This document shows positions 2,857 to 18,917 of a stretch of DNA of 22,455 bases, piece by piece. The first letter of the stretch is position 1, and every line of letters starts with the position of its first letter. The stretch is from positions 1 to 22,455 of the IMG/VR virus record IMGVR_UViG_3300030117_000011. One strand, written 5' to 3'. The DNA is from a virus. Position numbers and translations under genes: made by a program. Under the pieces are notes generated by a model. It did no database searches. It saw only the letters and a list, made by a program, of their open reading frames with translations, and was not told the origin of the DNA.

Positions 2857-3213
2857 TTAAGTTGGTTCAGTTGGAAATGTTACGTTTGTTAATATACCAT
2901 CTACAACTTTAGGATCAGCCGTAGACGTTAAATCTCTAAGTGCCTGACGATAAGTTATCCACTCAGCTTTTTTACTGTCAGATAATTTACTGTCTGTTAC
3001 TTGTGTCCAATCACACAATGACAATCTAAAGTTTCTTTCTTGACGTAGTAAATTCATTGGATAGCCAGATTCTAACTCTGCCATTTTATCTGTTATTTCT
3101 TTTTCAGTTGGTTCTGTCTGTGATGTGTCTTTCCAATCAAGAACATCATTACTCATGTTCCATTCTGCATTTGGTCTAAGTGCATGTATTGCATCTGCTC
3201 TAAAATATGGCAT
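2857..3213 (-). CDS. Tail-fibre / tail assembly chaperone-like protein (Phage_tail_APC type)
   Basis: The protein has 118 aa. The C-terminal half carries the recognisable pattern R-x2-RN-F-x3-L-x-DWTQ (about 57-71), then KLSDSKKAEWITYRQALRDL (76-95), which is typical of the Phage_tail_APC family (PF16778) of presumed tail assembly chaperones. The N-terminal half (FRADAIHALRPNAEWN) is family-variable. Such genes commonly sit directly behind a fibre gene and are thought to help fold or mature the fibre; here the ATG overlaps the fibre stop by one base (TAATG), in line with that. Binding to this particular fibre is inferred from position. Confidence 0.8.
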   Translation of the reverse strand: MPYFRADAIHALRPNAEWNMSNDVLDWKDTSQTEPTEKEITDKMAELESGYPMNLLRQERNFRLSLCDWTQVTDSKLSDSKKAEWITYRQALRDLTSTADPKVVDGILTNVTFPTEPT

Positions 3214-6200
3214 TATCCAGCTATCTCCATTGCAACCATTGTTGATATTTCGCCACCTTCATTATAATTCAATCCATCACTGCCACTGGATCGTTTAATA
3301 TTAATTGAATATGTAACTTGACTTGTAGTACTAGGACTATCCAGTTTAACAAATTCCGAAGCATTTCTTTTTATACTTCCACTATCTCTTTTTGCAGTTG
3401 TATTTGCTATAGCAGTACTATCTCTTCTTAATTCAAATGCAAATTCACCACTTGTATTAGTACCACCTAAGTTATAACTCATACTACAAGTAATAAAAAC
3501 CTTACTACTTGTTGATGATGGTGTTATATTTATAGAATGAGCTTGAACAAAACTATTAGAAGATGTTGTTGCTACACCAGTTATTGAAGATTCTACAACT
3601 TGTAAAACTTTACCAGTAACAAGTGCTGAACCGTTAACTTGAAAACCACTTGTTGCATTGAGTGTTCCAGTAATTTTTGCACCAGTATTAGTAGTCTCAA
3701 ATTTAGTAGCACCATTAAATCTAATATCTACTTTATCATCATTAAACGCATCTAGCATAATCGTGCCATCAGCTTTTGATAATCTTATAGTCTGTCCTGA
3801 TATGACTAAATTACCTGACCCACCAGTTTCTCTAATAAATGAGTTTACACCATCTGTTCCTATCTCTAGTTGTCCTGAGTCAAAACTTATTTTGTTATCA
3901 TTACCAATAATTACATCATGATTAAATGTAGCAGTTCCTGCATCTGACATATCAAGAGTAAGTGCAGTTACCTCTGAGCCACCATCATTACCTTTGAATA
4001 TTATGTCTTTATCTGAAACTGCTGATTTAATGACAAAATCACTACTTGAATTAGCAAAACGACCAATTTCTGTGCCTGCATCATGTATTTGAACATTACC
4101 AACATCAGCATCAAGAATAATTGCACCTGCTACATCTACAGTTAAGTTACCACTTGAAACATCTATTTCTTGTCCAAGAACAGCAAGATTACCTATTGAA
4201 AATCCTGTGTCTGAAACTACAGAGCCAGTAACAGTTATACCACTTGAACTAGTTTCTAATTTAGTAACATTATTATGGAAAAGTCTTACTACACCATCTT
4301 CAGCACCAAATAAAATATTTTCATCTCCAGCAGTATTCATAACTTTAAAATCATCAGCTTGTATTTGTAAATTACCAGTGCCTGAATCTTTTATTATAGA
4401 GTTAGAACCATCATGATAAATTTCTAAATCTTGAGATGCACCAAGTTTAATCCTGCTATTGTCACCAAGAAGTAAGTTTGCATCATGATCTATGGTTAAA
4501 GCAGTTCTTGTTTCACTATCATCTTGAAATGAAAATACCATACTAGGCTCAACGGTATCCATATCTTCGCCACTAGCCATAGTATTTCTAAATGTAAGAA
4601 CTCTTGTGCCATAAAGTATATCAGTAAATCTGCTTACATCAGTATCGTTAATTCTTATGTTTGGCGAACCATCATTTAATACTAAATCACCAGTTACAGT
4701 TAAAGCACCACTACTTAATGTGCCAGTAGTTGTTATATTCTTATCTTGTCCGTCAAGATTACCACCTAGTTGAGGTGTGGTATCTTCAACAATATTTCCT
4801 ATGCCAGTTACATTTACTGCCTGAAATGAACTTCCATCAAAAAATTTAAATGTATTATCAGAAGTATTAAAGAACAAATCGCCTGCATCATTATTTGAAG
4901 AAGGGTCACTGCTACCTACTCTATATCTTTCAGCAAAACTTGTCACACCTGATAAATTAGATGCTACTGTATTTACATTAGCTATTGATCCACCAACACT
5001 ATTTACATTGCTTACTGCACCTGCAACTGTAGCAATATTACTTATAACACCTGAAGCATTTAGAGCAGATATATTTGAGTTTGCACCTGCTACTGTATTA
5101 ATGTTTGATATTGCTCCTGCAACTGTTGATATATTACTATTTGCACTTGCAACAGTAGATATATTGCTATTTGCACTAGCCACTGTATTAACATTACTAA
5201 TGGCACTAGCTACTGTGCCTATATCACTTGCATCACCTGCAACTGCAGTTACATTACTAGCAATACCTGCTACTGTAGTAACATTACTTGCAACTCCTGC
5301 TACTGTAGTTACATTAGCTTTGATACCCTCTACTGCATTTAGATTAGATACAAAATCAGATGTAGCCAATAAATCAAGATCAGCAACTATTGCAGTTGTT
5401 GCTAGTGTATTTAAGTCAGCAATAAAATCTGATGTTACTGCCGCCATATCTGTAACAAAATCACTTGTTACTAAGTTAATCTTACTTACAAATGTACTAT
5501 CAATTAGTGCCATATCTGCGGCAAAATCAGATGTAATCAATGAGGCTTTACCTGCTACTGTAGTAACATTACTAGATATACCTGCTACTGTGCTAACATT
5601 ACCTGATATTCCTGCAACTGTAGTCACGTTACTATCTATACCTGCTACTGTAGTAACATTGCCACTAATACCTGCAACTGTATTAATATTTGCGGTAATA
5701 GCTGATAAACTATTTACATTTGCTATTGTTGGTCCTGCTTCAGCCGCTCCAGTAGTAGCATTAAATCCTAATACTGTACCTTTTCTTGATGCAAGTAATG
5801 GTAATTCCATAGATACTGCATCATCAAACTCCTGCAACCTTATTGCCCGTGAAGCTGAGTCATTAAAATCTGACTGTATTGCAGTCACAGTATCTAACTC
5901 TGTATTTAACTTTGATATTTCAAAAGCACCTGAACTTGGAAAGTCTGTAGTTCTTGATAAAGGTATATCACGAGTGATGACAACTGTACTGCCACCAGTA
6001 GCACCAGTGACAGATGTTGTTACAGTTCCAGTAGAACCATTGCCACCACTTACAGTATATAATGAAGTATTACTTGTACTTGCATCAAAGGTACGTTCAG
6101 TACCATCAACAAAAACATTTAAGTCTGTTGATGCAGTAAAAAACACAAATGGTACAGCAAATGAGGTTTGAGTTGCTCCCTGACTTACTGTGTAACTCAC

Positions 6201-6233
6201 TCGTGGTGTATTTGCACTCAAAGCTATAGTCAT
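3213..6233 (-). CDS. Tail fibre with T7-type N-terminal attachment domain and repeat stalk
   Basis: This 1006-aa protein is the probable receptor-binding fibre. Residues 1 to about 165 form the T7 gp17-like virion-attachment domain: an N-terminal beta part with YTVSQGATQTSFAVPF at 14-29, then TVVITRDIPLSRTTDFP (83-99), FEISKLNTELD (104-114) and RAIRLQEFD (129-137). Residues 182-430 are tandem 10-residue repeats of the type NVTTVAGIxS, interrupted by a different repeat at 231-302. Residues 435-480 hold a small domain (AGDLFFNTSDNTFKFFDG) common in marine phage fibres. Two related beta modules follow, at about 595-625 (DLEIYHDGSNSIIKDSGTGNLQI) and 788-812 (LEIGTDGVNSFIRETGGSG). A Ser/Thr-rich tip (about 878-1006) follows. 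The start has AAAGG about 8 bases upstream. The protein is longer than T7 gp17 (553 aa), mainly through the repeats. The host receptor cannot be told from sequence. Confidence 0.92.
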   Translation of the reverse strand: MTIALSANTPRVSYTVSQGATQTSFAVPFVFFTASTDLNVFVDGTERTFDASTSNTSLYTVSGGNGSTGTVTTSVTGATGGSTVVITRDIPLSRTTDFPSSGAFEISKLNTELDTVTAIQSDFNDSASRAIRLQEFDDAVSMELPLLASRKGTVLGFNATTGAAEAGPTIANVNSLSAITANINTVAGISGNVTTVAGIDSNVTTVAGISGNVSTVAGISSNVTTVAGKASLITSDFAADMALIDSTFVSKINLVTSDFVTDMAAVTSDFIADLNTLATTAIVADLDLLATSDFVSNLNAVEGIKANVTTVAGVASNVTTVAGIASNVTAVAGDASDIGTVASAISNVNTVASANSNISTVASANSNISTVAGAISNINTVAGANSNISALNASGVISNIATVAGAVSNVNSVGGSIANVNTVASNLSGVTSFAERYRVGSSDPSSNNDAGDLFFNTSDNTFKFFDGSSFQAVNVTGIGNIVEDTTPQLGGNLDGQDKNITTTGTLSSGALTVTGDLVLNDGSPNIRINDTDVSRFTDILYGTRVLTFRNTMASGEDMDTVEPSMVFSFQDDSETRTALTIDHDANLLLGDNSRIKLGASQDLEIYHDGSNSIIKDSGTGNLQIQADDFKVMNTAGDENILFGAEDGVVRLFHNNVTKLETSSSGITVTGSVVSDTGFSIGNLAVLGQEIDVSSGNLTVDVAGAIILDADVGNVQIHDAGTEIGRFANSSSDFVIKSAVSDKDIIFKGNDGGSEVTALTLDMSDAGTATFNHDVIIGNDNKISFDSGQLEIGTDGVNSFIRETGGSGNLVISGQTIRLSKADGTIMLDAFNDDKVDIRFNGATKFETTNTGAKITGTLNATSGFQVNGSALVTGKVLQVVESSITGVATTSSNSFVQAHSINITPSSTSSKVFITCSMSYNLGGTNTSGEFAFELRRDSTAIANTTAKRDSGSIKRNASEFVKLDSPSTTSQVTYSINIKRSSGSDGLNYNEGGEISTMVAMEIAG
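4944..5690 (-). repeat. Tandem 30-bp repeats encoding the fibre stalk
   Basis: Within the fibre gene the DNA repeats with a 30-bp period (10 codons, consensus NVxTVAGxxS). The 20-mer cctgctactgtagtaacatt occurs identically at 5266-5285, 5551-5570 and 5641-5660, and many diverged copies lie between. A central stretch (about 5328-5545) breaks the period with an 11-12-residue repeat of the type TSDFxxDLxxL. Copies are diverged enough to be an old expansion, but the identical 20-mers would still allow recombination. Confidence 0.9.
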
Positions 6234-15627: not shown

Positions 15628-16215
15628 TTAACTTCTCCTATTAGAAATAAATCTTGACGTTACTAATTTCCTTGTTGTCTGTTGCTGTGCATCTATGTTT
15701 CTAGCTTTTGCCATTAATAAATTAGCTTTTGTTTCCATTAATTGCATCAAGTTATCATCTCTAGCTATTGATGTAGCAAAGATAGATGCCAATGAATATT
15801 GTAATGCTAATGAAAAATATGATGGAAAATCAACTTCATCTGCTCTAAATGTAAAGTCTGCTACTAAAGTATCTGATGTTGTGCTATCACTAAATACTTT
15901 ATCACCATATACTGTAAACTCTATTAAATTATCATTTATAGTTACACCATGTAATACTAATAAGTTTGCAGGTAATTGATGTGCTATATCAAATCTGCCA
16001 GTAGGTACATCAGATAATTGATTGAGTACAGCTTGTTCTGTAGCAAATCGCCATCTTGCTGTAGACAACATGGCTCTAACTGTATCCTCATACATATTAG
16101 TTGCTACTAAGGCTTCAGTACTAGAAGAGTCAAATGAAGTAATAGGTTCTGCACCAATAAGAACTAAGGCTCTTGATGCTATATCTATTGCTGAATTTGC
16201 TACTGTACTTGCCAT
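15628..16215 (-). CDS. Tail tubular protein A (gp11-like)
   Basis: This 195-aa protein forms the ring that links portal to nozzle. It opens with SAIDIASRALVLIGAEPITSF (about 8-28) and has ATNMYEDTVRAMLSTARWRFAT (about 38-59), the two stretches that define the podovirus gp11-like adaptor family (T7 gp11 is 196 aa). PTGRFDIAHQLPANLLVLHGV matches the 'yppdcL.v..v' part. No clear Shine-Dalgarno is visible before the ATG, because the 7 bases upstream lead straight into the hairpin at 16223-16242. Translation may therefore depend on the hairpin's state or on a transcript processed there. The last codons contain the ribosome site of the next gene. Confidence 0.93.
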   Translation of the reverse strand: MASTVANSAIDIASRALVLIGAEPITSFDSSSTEALVATNMYEDTVRAMLSTARWRFATEQAVLNQLSDVPTGRFDIAHQLPANLLVLHGVTINDNLIEFTVYGDKVFSDSTTSDTLVADFTFRADEVDFPSYFSLALQYSLASIFATSIARDDNLMQLMETKANLLMAKARNIDAQQQTTRKLVTSRFISNRRS

Positions 16216-16222
16216 ATAAAGA

Positions 16223-16242
16223 TAGGGGGATTGCTCCCCCTA
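16223..16242 (-). terminator. Perfect 8-bp G-rich hairpin downstream of the capsid gene pair
   Basis: Bases 16223-16230 (TAGGGGGA) pair completely with 16235-16242 (TCCCCCTA) around a TTGC loop. It lies 3 bases beyond the stop of the small head gene and 7 bases before the ATG of tail tubular A. On the - strand the bases after the stem are TCTTTATATGG, which is U-containing but not a continuous U-run. T7 also has a terminator behind its capsid gene that lowers downstream expression; this element is in an equivalent place. An RNA stabiliser at the capsid mRNA end is the alternative. Confidence 0.7.
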
Positions 16243-16245
16243 CTC

Positions 16246-16512
16246 CTAATCTCCGTCTGTTTCTGCAACAGCAGTACCATCTGAAACGTCTACAGTAGTA
16301 CCATTGTTTGATAAGACAGTTACAAAGTTAGTTGTTGGTGTATTCGTATCTTGCACAATTACCAAGTCACGAACATTTAACATATTTATAGATTCACCAG
16401 TAAAATAACCTGCTGAGTTTACAGTAGCTATTGTATCTGTAGTTTGATAAATCCATAAGTTAACACCACTTGCTCCACCAATTCTGTGTAAGCCACTTGC
16501 ACTATAAGCCAT
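16246..16512 (-). CDS. Small capsid-adjacent protein, possible head decoration
   Basis: The protein has 88 aa and is beta-rich. The core has LWIYQTTDTIATVNSAGYF (residues 19-37) and LVIVQDTNTPTTNF (50-63), the pattern 'W.Y.T.D....V...GYF..a...l...D.I.v', which I know from small proteins directly behind major capsid genes in many phages. Function in those phages is mostly unassigned; a capsid decoration or head-fibre role is suggested by position and by a very strong ribosome site (AAAGGAGG about 6 bases before the ATG), the strongest in the window. That fits a protein made in capsid-like amounts. The tail is acidic (ETDGD). It lies 11 bases after the capsid stop and just before the hairpin. 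Confidence 0.75.
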   Translation of the reverse strand: MAYSASGLHRIGGASGVNLWIYQTTDTIATVNSAGYFTGESINMLNVRDLVIVQDTNTPTTNFVTVLSNNGTTVDVSDGTAVAETDGD

Positions 16513-16523
16513 TTAAACCTCCT

Positions 16524-17336
16524 TTAATTATTATCAAGAAGTTCATAGACACCATTGTTATCAATAACAACAGCACCCATAGACATCATTGAGGTTGCTA
16601 AATGAGATACTTTTTCTGCAATATAGTTTAGTTCTGTACTTACATCAGCACCGATACCTAAACCAACAGCAGTGGTATGATATGCCATATTCTTACCTGC
16701 TGTGATAGCCGCAGTAGAAAAAATCTTAAATCCTAAGAACTCTTTCATTGTCATGCCACCTGCAAAAGGTAAGTTCTGCTCACCAACAAAGTCTGATGAT
16801 GCAAACTCAGTAATATTAAATAAGTCAGCATATCCCTTTGGGTGCATAGCAATATATCTGCCACCATCTTCTGGAATATTTGCAGTACCAAAAGTTTCAA
16901 ATACAGCTAACAAATCTGCTTTTTGAACAGCAGAACTTGTGTCATGTATCTGTGTACTATTAGCACCTGAATCCATTGCAGTATAAAGCAACTCGTCAGT
17001 TTTTCTTCCAAGAGCCGCCGCCGCACTTGTTGCCACAGCTTGTCGCTCATCTATATTGGTCTTTAGCTCATCTAACTTGTCGATAAACTCTGCGGCAAAG
17101 AAGTCCTGCATTGTTACATCTACAGTTGTATGTGCTAGTTCCATTGGTGTTACTTGTCCATTTCGAGATTTAGTACTCGCAGTTCCAGTACCAATTTTCT
17201 GAAACCTTGCTGTATTTCCTTGTACGTTAGCTACAGTACGGACAGTATTTCTTAATTTACTACCCATTCTTTGATAAGCTAAATGCACTTCGGTCTCGAA
17301 CTGGGTAATAAAGGCTGTATCTATTGTATTAGCCAT
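16524..17336 (-). CDS. Major capsid protein, HK97 fold (Phage_capsid_2-like)
   Basis: This 270-aa protein forms the icosahedral shell. The N-terminus ITQFETEVHLAYQRMGSKLRNTVRTVANVQGNTARFQKIG (residues 10-49) and the next TPMELAHTTVDVTMQDFFAAEFIDKLDELKTNID (63-96) show the order 'q....l.yQ...s.Lr..V.......g..a.F...G', then a 'TP...........dy.aa..iD..d......d' core found in HK97-type capsid proteins of the Phage_capsid_2 class. The G-rich NLPFAGGMTMKEFLGFKIFST is the usual late beta region. It is shorter than T7 gp10A (345 aa) and no frameshifted long form is evident. The ATG has GTGGAG about 8 bases upstream, and the gene has its own 81-base leader with direct repeats, the longest leader in the block. 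High expression is expected. Confidence 0.9.
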   Translation of the reverse strand: MANTIDTAFITQFETEVHLAYQRMGSKLRNTVRTVANVQGNTARFQKIGTGTASTKSRNGQVTPMELAHTTVDVTMQDFFAAEFIDKLDELKTNIDERQAVATSAAAALGRKTDELLYTAMDSGANSTQIHDTSSAVQKADLLAVFETFGTANIPEDGGRYIAMHPKGYADLFNITEFASSDFVGEQNLPFAGGMTMKEFLGFKIFSTAAITAGKNMAYHTTAVGLGIGADVSTELNYIAEKVSHLATSMMSMGAVVIDNNGVYELLDNN

Positions 17337-17371
17337 TTCAGTTCTCCACTAAAAAGTTAAAGTTACATTTT

Positions 17372-17407
17372 ATCTAGTTATCCAATGTTAGCTTCATCTA
17401 GTTATCC
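17372..17407 (-). promoter_or_regulatory. Two 12-bp direct repeats ahead of the capsid gene
   Basis: In the 81-base space before the capsid ATG, the 12-mer GGATAACTAGAT (- strand; atctagttatcc on +) occurs twice, at 17396-17407 and 17372-17383, with a 24-bp period. After the second copy comes TAAAAT, which resembles a -10 box, but no good -35 lies at the right distance. Both repeats contain CTAG, and the spacer also has an A/T-rich character. This may be a promoter or regulator-binding site that boosts capsid mRNA. No other copy was noticed in the window. Confidence 0.4.
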
Positions 17408-17417
17408 GTTAGGGCTA

Positions 17418-17951
17418 TCAGCTACAAACTGGGCTATATTCTTTATTTACCAAAATTTTTTCGCCTTTGCAACGTACAAATCGCAAAACAGCAAAACCAT
17501 TAATCATTATAGGTTGTTCTATTACTTCAAAACCTATGTAATCTAACCATTGTAATGTCTTAGCATGGTCAGCAGGTACTACATTTTCTAGCTGATAATA
17601 CTTATTTTGAAAATAATCTACTACTGGCACACACCATTTAAGAAACTTTCTTTGTATTTTATATATATCATATGTGCCTAATGCCCATATTTTACCAATC
17701 ATATTATCCAAAATAGGATTGCAACCAAAGATAAATGCAGGTTGTCCATCAATCATAACACTAAAACTTTCACCATTTGGCTCTCTAATACCTGCCATCA
17801 AAGCACGAAAAGGAGTTGCACCATGTATCATGCACTCTCTAACATCTGCATCTCTCATATTATTTTGCAGATAATTTAGATGTTTTATATGTGATTTGAC
17901 TATAGGGTATCCATCATAGATACCCTCACCATTAAATTCTCTTGAAGCCAT
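17418..17951 (-). CDS. gp13-like GNAT-fold protein (Phage protein Gp13-like)
   Basis: The protein has 177 aa. It looks like the Gp13-like/DUF2833 family (PF11090), a GNAT-type fold that includes T7 gp13, an internal virion protein needed for assembly but not found in the mature particle. Visible points are the opening IKHLNYLQNNMRDADVRECM (22-41), PFRALMAGI (47-55), a central sheet SVMIDGQPAFIFGCNPI (64-80), the helix-turn 'GKIWALGTYDIYKIQRKFLKW' (86-106) and the end WLDYIGFEVIEQP (135-147), the GNAT-like 'WL..lGF'. The usual acetyl-CoA P-loop (R/Q-x2-G-x-G/A) is not evident, so enzymatic acetyl transfer is doubtful. It lies between scaffold and capsid, whereas in T7 gp13 follows the tail tubular genes. 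The ATG overlaps the end of the scaffold gene by 20 bases. Confidence 0.75.
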   Translation of the reverse strand: MASREFNGEGIYDGYPIVKSHIKHLNYLQNNMRDADVRECMIHGATPFRALMAGIREPNGESFSVMIDGQPAFIFGCNPILDNMIGKIWALGTYDIYKIQRKFLKWCVPVVDYFQNKYYQLENVVPADHAKTLQWLDYIGFEVIEQPIMINGFAVLRFVRCKGEKILVNKEYSPVCS

Positions 17952-18669
17952 CAGTTATTTCTTGAACATATGCTTTATCTCTTCTTGCAGGATCATAGTA
18001 TCTAGGATCTCGCATCTTAGCCATAAGATCTTCAATAGTAACTTTAGATGGTGATGATCCTTGAGCATTTGGTGTAGCTTGTTGCATTGATCTTTGTATA
18101 AGTTCTAATGCCTTTATACCTTCTGCACTTGTGCCAAGTTCTGCAACAGCATCTCGCAGTTCTTCAGGAAAAAACTTATTAACAAATAACTGTGTAGCCT
18201 CTACTCTTGAATTTGCATTATCACCTAAATCTTTTTTTACTTGCTCAAGATCAGGTTGATTACTACCAGTATGCTCTGCCCATTTTGTTATACCTTCATT
18301 AAACTCATCTTGTGATAATCCATTTTCCCAAGAATAATCTGCCCACCATTTAAGTAATGGATTAGTTGCGGCTTCACCTTCATCAAGTATCTCAGGTATT
18401 TGATAGTCACCTGCACTAGCAGGTCTATTAGCATATGCTTCTGTTTCTAACTCTTGTAAAACATTAGCCTTTATATCTTCTTCTTTCTTTCCTTTCCATG
18501 ACTCTAGTTCTGAGTATGACTTAGCCATATCTTCCCAAGTATTAAACTTTTCAGGTAAGCCTTCAGGTCTAGTTGGTTCAGCTACAGACTCAGTAGTTGT
18601 GGGAGGTACACTAGCTTCTGTTGGGGTTTCTGTAGCTGATTCTGTTGGTGTTGCTTGTTCTTCACTCAT
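17932..18669 (-). CDS. Capsid assembly scaffolding protein (gp9-like)
   Basis: This 245-aa protein is transiently inside the procapsid and leaves before DNA packaging. The first about 35 residues are Thr/Pro/Glu-rich low-complexity (PTESATETPTEASVPPTTTE). A highly helical acidic body follows. The C-terminus is more basic, with MAKMRDPRYYDPARRDKAYVQEITDGFKRI, the 'm.dprYwd...rD..yv..v..GF..l' end typical of gp9-like scaffolds and likely to bind the coat. T7 gp9 is 307 aa, so the size is normal. No proteolytic cleavage site or fused protease was seen. The ATG overlaps the Bbp19-like gene's TGA (ATGA). Confidence 0.9.
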   Translation of the reverse strand: MSEEQATPTESATETPTEASVPPTTTESVAEPTRPEGLPEKFNTWEDMAKSYSELESWKGKKEEDIKANVLQELETEAYANRPASAGDYQIPEILDEGEAATNPLLKWWADYSWENGLSQDEFNEGITKWAEHTGSNQPDLEQVKKDLGDNANSRVEATQLFVNKFFPEELRDAVAELGTSAEGIKALELIQRSMQQATPNAQGSSPSKVTIEDLMAKMRDPRYYDPARRDKAYVQEITDGFKRI

Positions 18670-18917
18670 TTCTTTATCCTTTGTGCATGGTTGATTCTCT
18701 TAACTATTAAAGCCACTAAATATCGTTGCCCTTCCAAATGCCTAAGTTCTGCATCTGAAATATTAGCACCACTGACTGCTTCGATAGTTATTGACTTTAA
18801 ATACTGTAACATCTCCAAACCATTTGGAGTTTTGAATACTGATTCTATAACTTTGGAAATTTGTTCGTCTTTATCTTTAGGTCTAGGATATCCGTCAACC
18901 CCCAAGTGTTGCGGCAT
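18666..18917 (-). CDS. Bbp19-like small protein
   Basis: The protein has 83 aa. The pattern FKTPNGLEMLQYL (28-40) followed by EGQRYLVALIVKRI (62-75) is that of the Bbp19-like phage domain ('vF.t..G..vl..L ... F.eGqR.vv..il..l'). The family is small, helical, commonly placed between portal and scaffold genes in podoviruses, and of unproven function. It starts inside the end of the portal gene (23-base overlap), with an AAGGAGAA about 7 bases before its ATG, and is coupled to the scaffold gene by an ATGA overlap. A role in portal or capsid nucleation would be inference only. Confidence 0.8.
   Translation of the reverse strand: MPQHLGVDGYPRPKDKDEQISKVIESVFKTPNGLEMLQYLKSITIEAVSGANISDAELRHLEGQRYLVALIVKRINHAQRIKK

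Follow-up and report, generated by a model that had tools for sequence, protein, structure and literature searches.

A twin RNA module with a C/AYAA internal loop before phage capsid genes, a candidate operator for head-protein synthesis

The capsid-to-scaffold ratio in lytic dsDNA phages is an old question for which few RNA mechanisms are known. Phage T4 has translational operators, mRNA sites in a dsDNA phage that are read by phage proteins, and ribosomal protein leaders exert autogenous control through a structured leader. The scaffolding protein of phage P22 autoregulates by post-transcriptional feedback on head-protein synthesis, and we know of no RNA site for this control. The MS2-type coat-protein operator is a short hairpin with conserved unpaired bases that acts in virion-protein expression (PMC5758548). 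Structured RNAs have also come from marine phage DNA as the manA and wcaG RNA motifs, which are tied to metabolic genes, and the word "capsid" is absent from the main text of that work (PMC2864571). In pelagiphage Skadi, according to its published description, no ribonucleotide switches were identified (PMC10504331).

The stretch of DNA analyzed here, called the window, comprises the 22,455 nucleotides of IMG/VR virus record IMGVR_UViG_3300030117_000011 and carries two copies of a small RNA module at its capsid leader. With the MS2-type site the module shares a short hairpin, conserved unpaired bases and a connection to virion proteins; the MS2 site is located at the start of the replicase gene in an RNA genome, whereas the module belongs to dsDNA tailed phages, has a C/AYAA internal loop, usually comes in two copies and is freely inverted. 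The likeness to the T4 operators, as mRNA sites read by phage proteins, extends neither to the proteins nor to the sites, and no twin C/AYAA module is known to us among them. In contrast to ribosomal protein leaders, the module has no Rfam match and stands at phage head genes, not ribosomal genes. The likeness to P22 would lie in feedback on head-protein synthesis. The unusual trait of the module is that one small unit is used twice or more, in either orientation.

Against Rfam 15, positions 16900-17900 of the window gave, at E values up to 5, only two chance miRNA matches below the gathering score and at other places. Nine sources searched at the gathering score and seven further sources searched at E up to 1 gave no match. 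A literature search, with most subscription papers outside its scope, found no description of such an element. As far as these searches go, within Rfam 15 and the literature covered, the module is a new RNA family of the cis-regulatory leader type.

The repeat pair and the hairpin in the window leader

The initial annotation had drawn attention to two 12-bp direct repeats with a 24-bp period in the capsid leader. Both were located exactly: the minus strand has GGATAACTAGAT at 17372-17383 and again at 17396-17407, with the two starts 24 nt apart, and the match grows to 15 nt once one mismatch is allowed. The further claim that no other copy exists holds over the 22,455-base record at up to one mismatch. 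Six exact 12-mer pairs 12-40 nt apart occur in the window, compared with a chance expectation of 0.13 on average and two at most (60 order-1 simulations of the window), and five of them fall at 5266-5591, where 12-mers repeat 30 nt apart within a long ORF (3213-6233). The leader itself, 17337-17417, is flanked by the capsid ORF (16524-17336, minus strand) and the stop codon of the ORF at 17418-17951 (minus strand).

The repeat pair consists of RNA module halves, not of a DNA direct repeat, as read from the sequence and its relatives: each GGATAACTA forms the 3' half of a single module. The module is made of a lower stem of free sequence, a 1x4 internal loop and a cap that opens with a C-G pair. 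In the internal loop, a single unpaired C faces AYAA or, rarely, AYAC or AGAA. The window has two modules, one inside the other, in a single hairpin that spans the capsid leader, with the inner module UAG-C-CC(UAAC)GG-AUAA-CUA separated from the outer module UAG-C-CCA...UGG-AUAA-CUA by a short AGCU/AGCU stem. The functional unit begins upstream of the leader, in the last codons of the ORF at 17418-17951, so coding may add to the conservation of the outer 5' arm; the module arms downstream of that stop codon are noncoding. The features are as follows.

17932..18669, minus strand: scaffold (capsid assembly) protein (PF05396, E 5e-9)
17418..17951, minus strand: ORF upstream of the leader, internal virion protein-like (phrog_308, E 1e-27)
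17434..17436, minus strand: outer module, lower stem 5' strand UAG; pairs with 17375-17377 and covaries in relatives
17430..17433, minus strand: outer module, unpaired C (17433) and cap 5' strand CCA; C in 65/65 unique rows, where the parse required CC
17420..17423, minus strand: predicted middle stem, 5' strand AGCU; complementary to 17390-17393 and overlapping the UGA stop of the ORF at 17418-17951
17415..17417, minus strand: inner module, lower stem 5' strand UAG; pairs with 17399-17401
17408..17414, minus strand: inner module, unpaired C (17414), cap CC and loop UAAC; C in 65/65 (parse-required CC), cap paired in 98-100%
17396..17407, minus strand: first repeat copy, the inner module 3' strand GG, AUAA, CUA, by exact match and covariation
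17390..17393, minus strand: predicted middle stem, 3' strand AGCU; complementary to 17420-17423
17372..17384, minus strand: second repeat copy plus one base, the outer module 3' strand UGG, AUAA, CUA, by exact match and covariation
17344..17347, minus strand: Shine-Dalgarno-like GGAG of the capsid gene, by sequence
16524..17336, minus strand: major capsid protein, 270 aa (PF19821, E 8e-59; phrog_3437)

Counterparts of the middle stem were recognized by eye in relatives. Single-sequence minimum-free-energy folding of the window leader gives another fold and no signal (z -0.03), so it does not favor the nested hairpin; the stems in the window are only 3 bp long. Between the module and the Shine-Dalgarno-like site, at 17351-17371 (minus strand), lies an AU-rich stretch with a repeated UAACUUU; many relatives have similar stretches, and it may resemble the leader of T7 gene 10.

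Covariation in relatives

Leaders of relatives were cut by their unpaired motifs alone, with pairing not required, and all 81 unique leaders parsed; dropping six short-end rows left 75, of which 65 are distinct. The counts were anchored on the unpaired motifs because whole-leader alignment with MAFFT shifted the C-CC columns between subgroups. Among 1035 column pairs ranked by corrected covariation, predicted pairs of the two modules fill ranks 1-7, the three inner lower-stem pairs taking ranks 1-3. Changes were also traced along a tree of the capsid coding sequence: by inference, 61 replace both partners with pairing retained, 11 retain pairing through a change in one partner, and 30 include an unpaired state. 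When the partners are slid by -2, -1, +1 and +2, paired double changes fall to 6, 1, 0 and 4, compared with 61 for the true partners. In 20 aligned hairpins that represent three capsid lineages, 90.7% of cells are paired versus 65.1% after shuffling, and the covariation score of 0.725 compares with 0.201 for shuffled alignments and was reached by none of 500 shuffles. The leader almost certainly contains a conserved RNA structure, judged from these sequence comparisons, and the covariation points to RNA structure under selection, as a translational operator requires.

The stems change and the loop stays. UAG/CUA is exchanged in relatives for CAG/CUG, GCGA/UCGC, GUGA/UCAU, UUG/CAA and others, and the loop stays constant across stems whose sequences differ widely. 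In both modules, 65/65 rows have C at the unpaired position, where the parse itself required CC. For the four-base loop, 61/65 inner and 63/65 outer modules have AUAA or ACAA and the remainder AYAC, the parse having accepted only AYAA or AYAC. Both modules of locus L061 carry the AYAC variant, a concerted change too rare to test. At the outer cap, B1 is C-G in 65/65 rows and B2 is paired in 98%, with the pair types TA 25, CG 24, TG 11, AT 3, GC 1 and one unpaired. This last column bears on the CsrA/RsmA sites, which have a constant GGA within a hairpin loop: here the base preceding the G is part of a covarying outer pair and the site sits in an internal-loop context, and this candidate was rejected.

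These data also decide the DNA reading of the repeat, in which a single protein would contact both 12-bp copies from the same side of the helix. An exact pair of 12-mers with a 24-bp period fits such an operator, and 12 viral contigs, which resemble one another around the start of the capsid gene, contain exact copies of the spaced pair. Elsewhere the pattern dissolves. In the leaders of 79 more capsid-relative loci (from the best 80 of ~600), the 12-mer is not the conserved part, and a check of relatives' capsid leaders for its conservation found it varying freely with the module kept. Its letters covary with partners in upstream arms. Core-to-core spacing in the 81 unique leaders is 24 nt in 29, 25 in 26, 26 in 11, 27 in 8 and 31-34 nt in 7, so helical phasing is irrelevant. 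The module is strand-specific, with no antisense copy of its strict form, and in other lineages it is found in permuted forms, inside out or on separate hairpins, which is sensible for RNA only. A DNA direct-repeat operator needs a conserved repeat and a fixed spacing, and the 81 leaders have neither; this reading is refuted as far as computation reaches and we give it hardly any weight. What survives of the earlier proposal is a conserved twin element directly before the capsid gene, for which two recognition units are typical.

Placement of the module at head genes

In its strict form (at least three lower pairs), the module was scanned for without loci L001-L014 and L185-L264, mostly repeats of other loci. 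Within the 1,145,008 bases of loci listed, 216 strict modules lie within 230 nt upstream of capsid starts and none lies elsewhere or antisense; two more in the leaders of the cut-short loci L091 and L159 bring the total to 218. Rearranged loop letters are near zero, except for AYAC (6) and ARAA (4) in leaders. A looser scan in both orientations over 1,290,204 bases of loci listed found 152 modules in leaders, 9 elsewhere and 11 antisense. The homologue scans of viral contigs each took the best 80 of ~600 loci.

A test free of any capsid query searched all viral contigs with two patterns whose stems were chosen arbitrarily. Among the 240 matches listed, 139 precede a PF19821-like capsid by no more than 300 nt, and a second module is nearby in 70 of these 139 but in only 6 of the 101 others listed. 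Those six comprise one cut-off leader of a PF19821-type capsid, one GP7-type capsid and four scaffold-like ORFs (L452, L467, L474 and L525); at L525, the twin module sits between portal-like and major head protein genes. L572 (reverse strand, ~510-650) has two modules and a possible third before its GP7-type capsid. Since that capsid is GP7-type, Epsilon15, BcepC6B and Mel-JY33, which have GP7-type capsids, were scanned, and no module was found at their capsid leaders. A single module-like hairpin stands ~110 nt before a major tail protein gene in L677 and L650 (4 contigs), and the L471 type has one module in 12 similar contigs, without a second; both may be chance. In the phage genomes scanned, gene classes other than capsid and scaffold have no module above background. 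A riboswitch is unlikely, as the module is associated with head genes only. The window and seven other module-bearing sequences (four of them complete phage genomes) have detectably in common only the portal, the capsid and two tail-tube families.

The form of the module differs between phage lineages. In Baldr-type leaders it stands on two separate hairpins, with two strict matches in 70/79 leaders among the loci listed, a modules-per-leader count that overlapping matches inflate. HTVC010P-type leaders, again among loci listed, have an inverted module in 71/76 and, under a looser rule, a second module with AGAA or AUAA in 76/76. A third copy, inverted, lies in codons ~4-14 of the scaffold gene in 57/59 of the listed HTVC010P-type loci that reach far enough. 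The stems of this scaffold-gene module include CACAG/CUGUG, CGGAG/CUCCG and CGGAGC/GCUUCG, the pairs being kept as amino acids and length vary. In Skadi-4, by eye, the capsid-proximal module is kept in a variant form though the overlying peptide differs. Vibrio phage CKB-S2 has one module in each orientation, and each of the three Manatee Spring phages has one or more, weak in MW202572.

Bacterial chromosomes hold the module as well. Alphaproteobacterial chromosomes and MAG contigs (Azospirillum, Micavibrio and Geminicoccaceae; capsids 42-54% identical) have their own versions, for example CUGGCCGG-ACAA-CC(GAAA)GG-C-CCGGCCAG. In 79 bacterial loci (512,239 bases; from the best 80 of 101), 25 strong modules are in the 220-nt leader, two are outside it and none is antisense; at a lower threshold, 32 of the best 80 leaders (of 101) have a match. 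Among loci listed, a capsid 44-49% identical to that of the window occurs in many Azospirillum species and in Micavibrio and Geminicoccaceae relatives (loci L371, L383, L384, L386, L388, L390, L392, L393, L398, L408-L412 and others). This even presence hints at a long-kept prophage or a gene-transfer-agent-like locus. In the MAG contigs L430 and L433, a variant with five loop bases, GG-AACAA, occupies this place, ~30-100 nt ahead of the capsid.

The module is also missing from relatives. Among 22 named records with a relative of the window capsid whose leader was read, 11 have it: Baldr, CKB-S2, HTVC010P, HTVC034P, HTVC024P, HTVC100P, Lederberg, Skadi-4 and the three Manatee Spring phages (one weak). 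It was not found in the capsid leaders of the other 11: Hodr, MT838907, MEP301, SI2, HTVC028P, ZP6, Vibrio 1.182.O, YeP5, Vibrio 121E34-1, PG9A-1 and D453. The capsids of the Vibrio phages 121E34-1, PG9A-1 and D453 are 81-85% identical to that of CKB-S2, which makes loss of the module possible. In three Vibrio phages without it (L276, L277 and L278), a GC-rich hairpin stands in its place, possibly a replacement.

Candidate readers and the operator reading

Several known signals were sought at the window leader. No intrinsic terminator (GC stem plus T run) was found in 17337-17440, and no minus-strand sigma-70 promoter match lies near the leader; sigma-70-like matches in 16200-18700 number 4, compared with 9.8 in shuffles.

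One candidate role is in RNA processing or decay, in which the fold would be cut, or would protect a new 5' end, and so yield a stable capsid mRNA from the late transcript. The module does lie between late genes and ahead of the capsid, and a terminator-like hairpin with a T-rich tail at 16222-16243 (minus strand) follows the 88-aa ORF after the capsid, so the capsid and this ORF may form a separate cassette. The stems, however, are short for a double-strand nuclease, the module also occurs inside the scaffold ORF, and 47/57 Baldr-type leaders show a -10-like hexamer immediately upstream, so that no cut is needed there. We regard processing as improbable.

Put-type antitermination RNA acts on RNA polymerase through nascent RNA, and the module might be a transcription element of this manner. 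Such phages use the host polymerase (PMC10504331), and the polymerase is conserved across hosts. Yet the module is at head genes rather than operon starts, its scaffold copy is within a coding region, and no terminator was found in the window leader; this role is less probable again than processing.

The module likely acts by binding a protein and would then be the recognition site of an RNA-binding protein. A less likely candidate is a host factor, either the ribosome or a widely conserved nuclease or RNA-binding protein of bacteria, that would read the module and raise mRNA stability or translation. Scaffold and capsid are proteins required in bulk, and the target mRNAs encode the two most abundant virion proteins. 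Occurrence in Pelagibacter and Vibrio phages and in alphaproteobacterial chromosomes would also suit a host factor, as would the modules before head genes of other families. Against it stands HTVC019P, which has no module, a different capsid and its own RNA polymerase and was recorded from HTCC1062, the host strain of HTVC010P too. The background-level occurrence outside head genes in the phage genomes scanned counts the same way, and the scaffold site in the first codons fits repression better than help.

The reading preferred here, at a probability of roughly 0.45, is a protein-bound operator for head-protein synthesis that a phage head protein would read. The module is placed only at capsid and scaffold genes, from which control of their synthesis is inferred; the operator would tune translation of the two proteins, or their mRNA level, to what head assembly requires. 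The likeliest ligand is a phage head protein, capsid first and scaffold second, though as an identification of the binder this falls a little short of even odds. As an oligomer, it would bind two modules and repress or balance its own synthesis. In the scaffold gene, the site is near the position of initiating ribosomes, inside the first codons (57/59), so a bound protein should hinder initiation there. Window-type capsid modules end ~30-60 nt before the start codon, which leaves the ribosome site uncovered. Counting against an operator is the absence of the module in close relatives. Counting against a head protein as reader are the modules before head genes of other families (L572; L452, L467, L474 and L525), which weaken the tie to a single capsid family.

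The C/AYAA loop may represent a new unit of RNA-protein recognition, and the module is a marker for locating head genes in unannotated viral DNA. The presence of the module in cultured HTVC010P-type pelagiphages and in Vibrio phage CKB-S2 makes the proposal directly testable. More tentatively still, a head protein may read the twin C/AYAA module on its own and its partner's mRNA, balancing shell against scaffold, in a system widespread in tailed phages. If this is true, some of the ocean's most abundant viruses would have an RNA feedback loop in head-protein synthesis, and the feedback module would be one kept in alphaproteobacterial chromosomes and before other head-gene families too.
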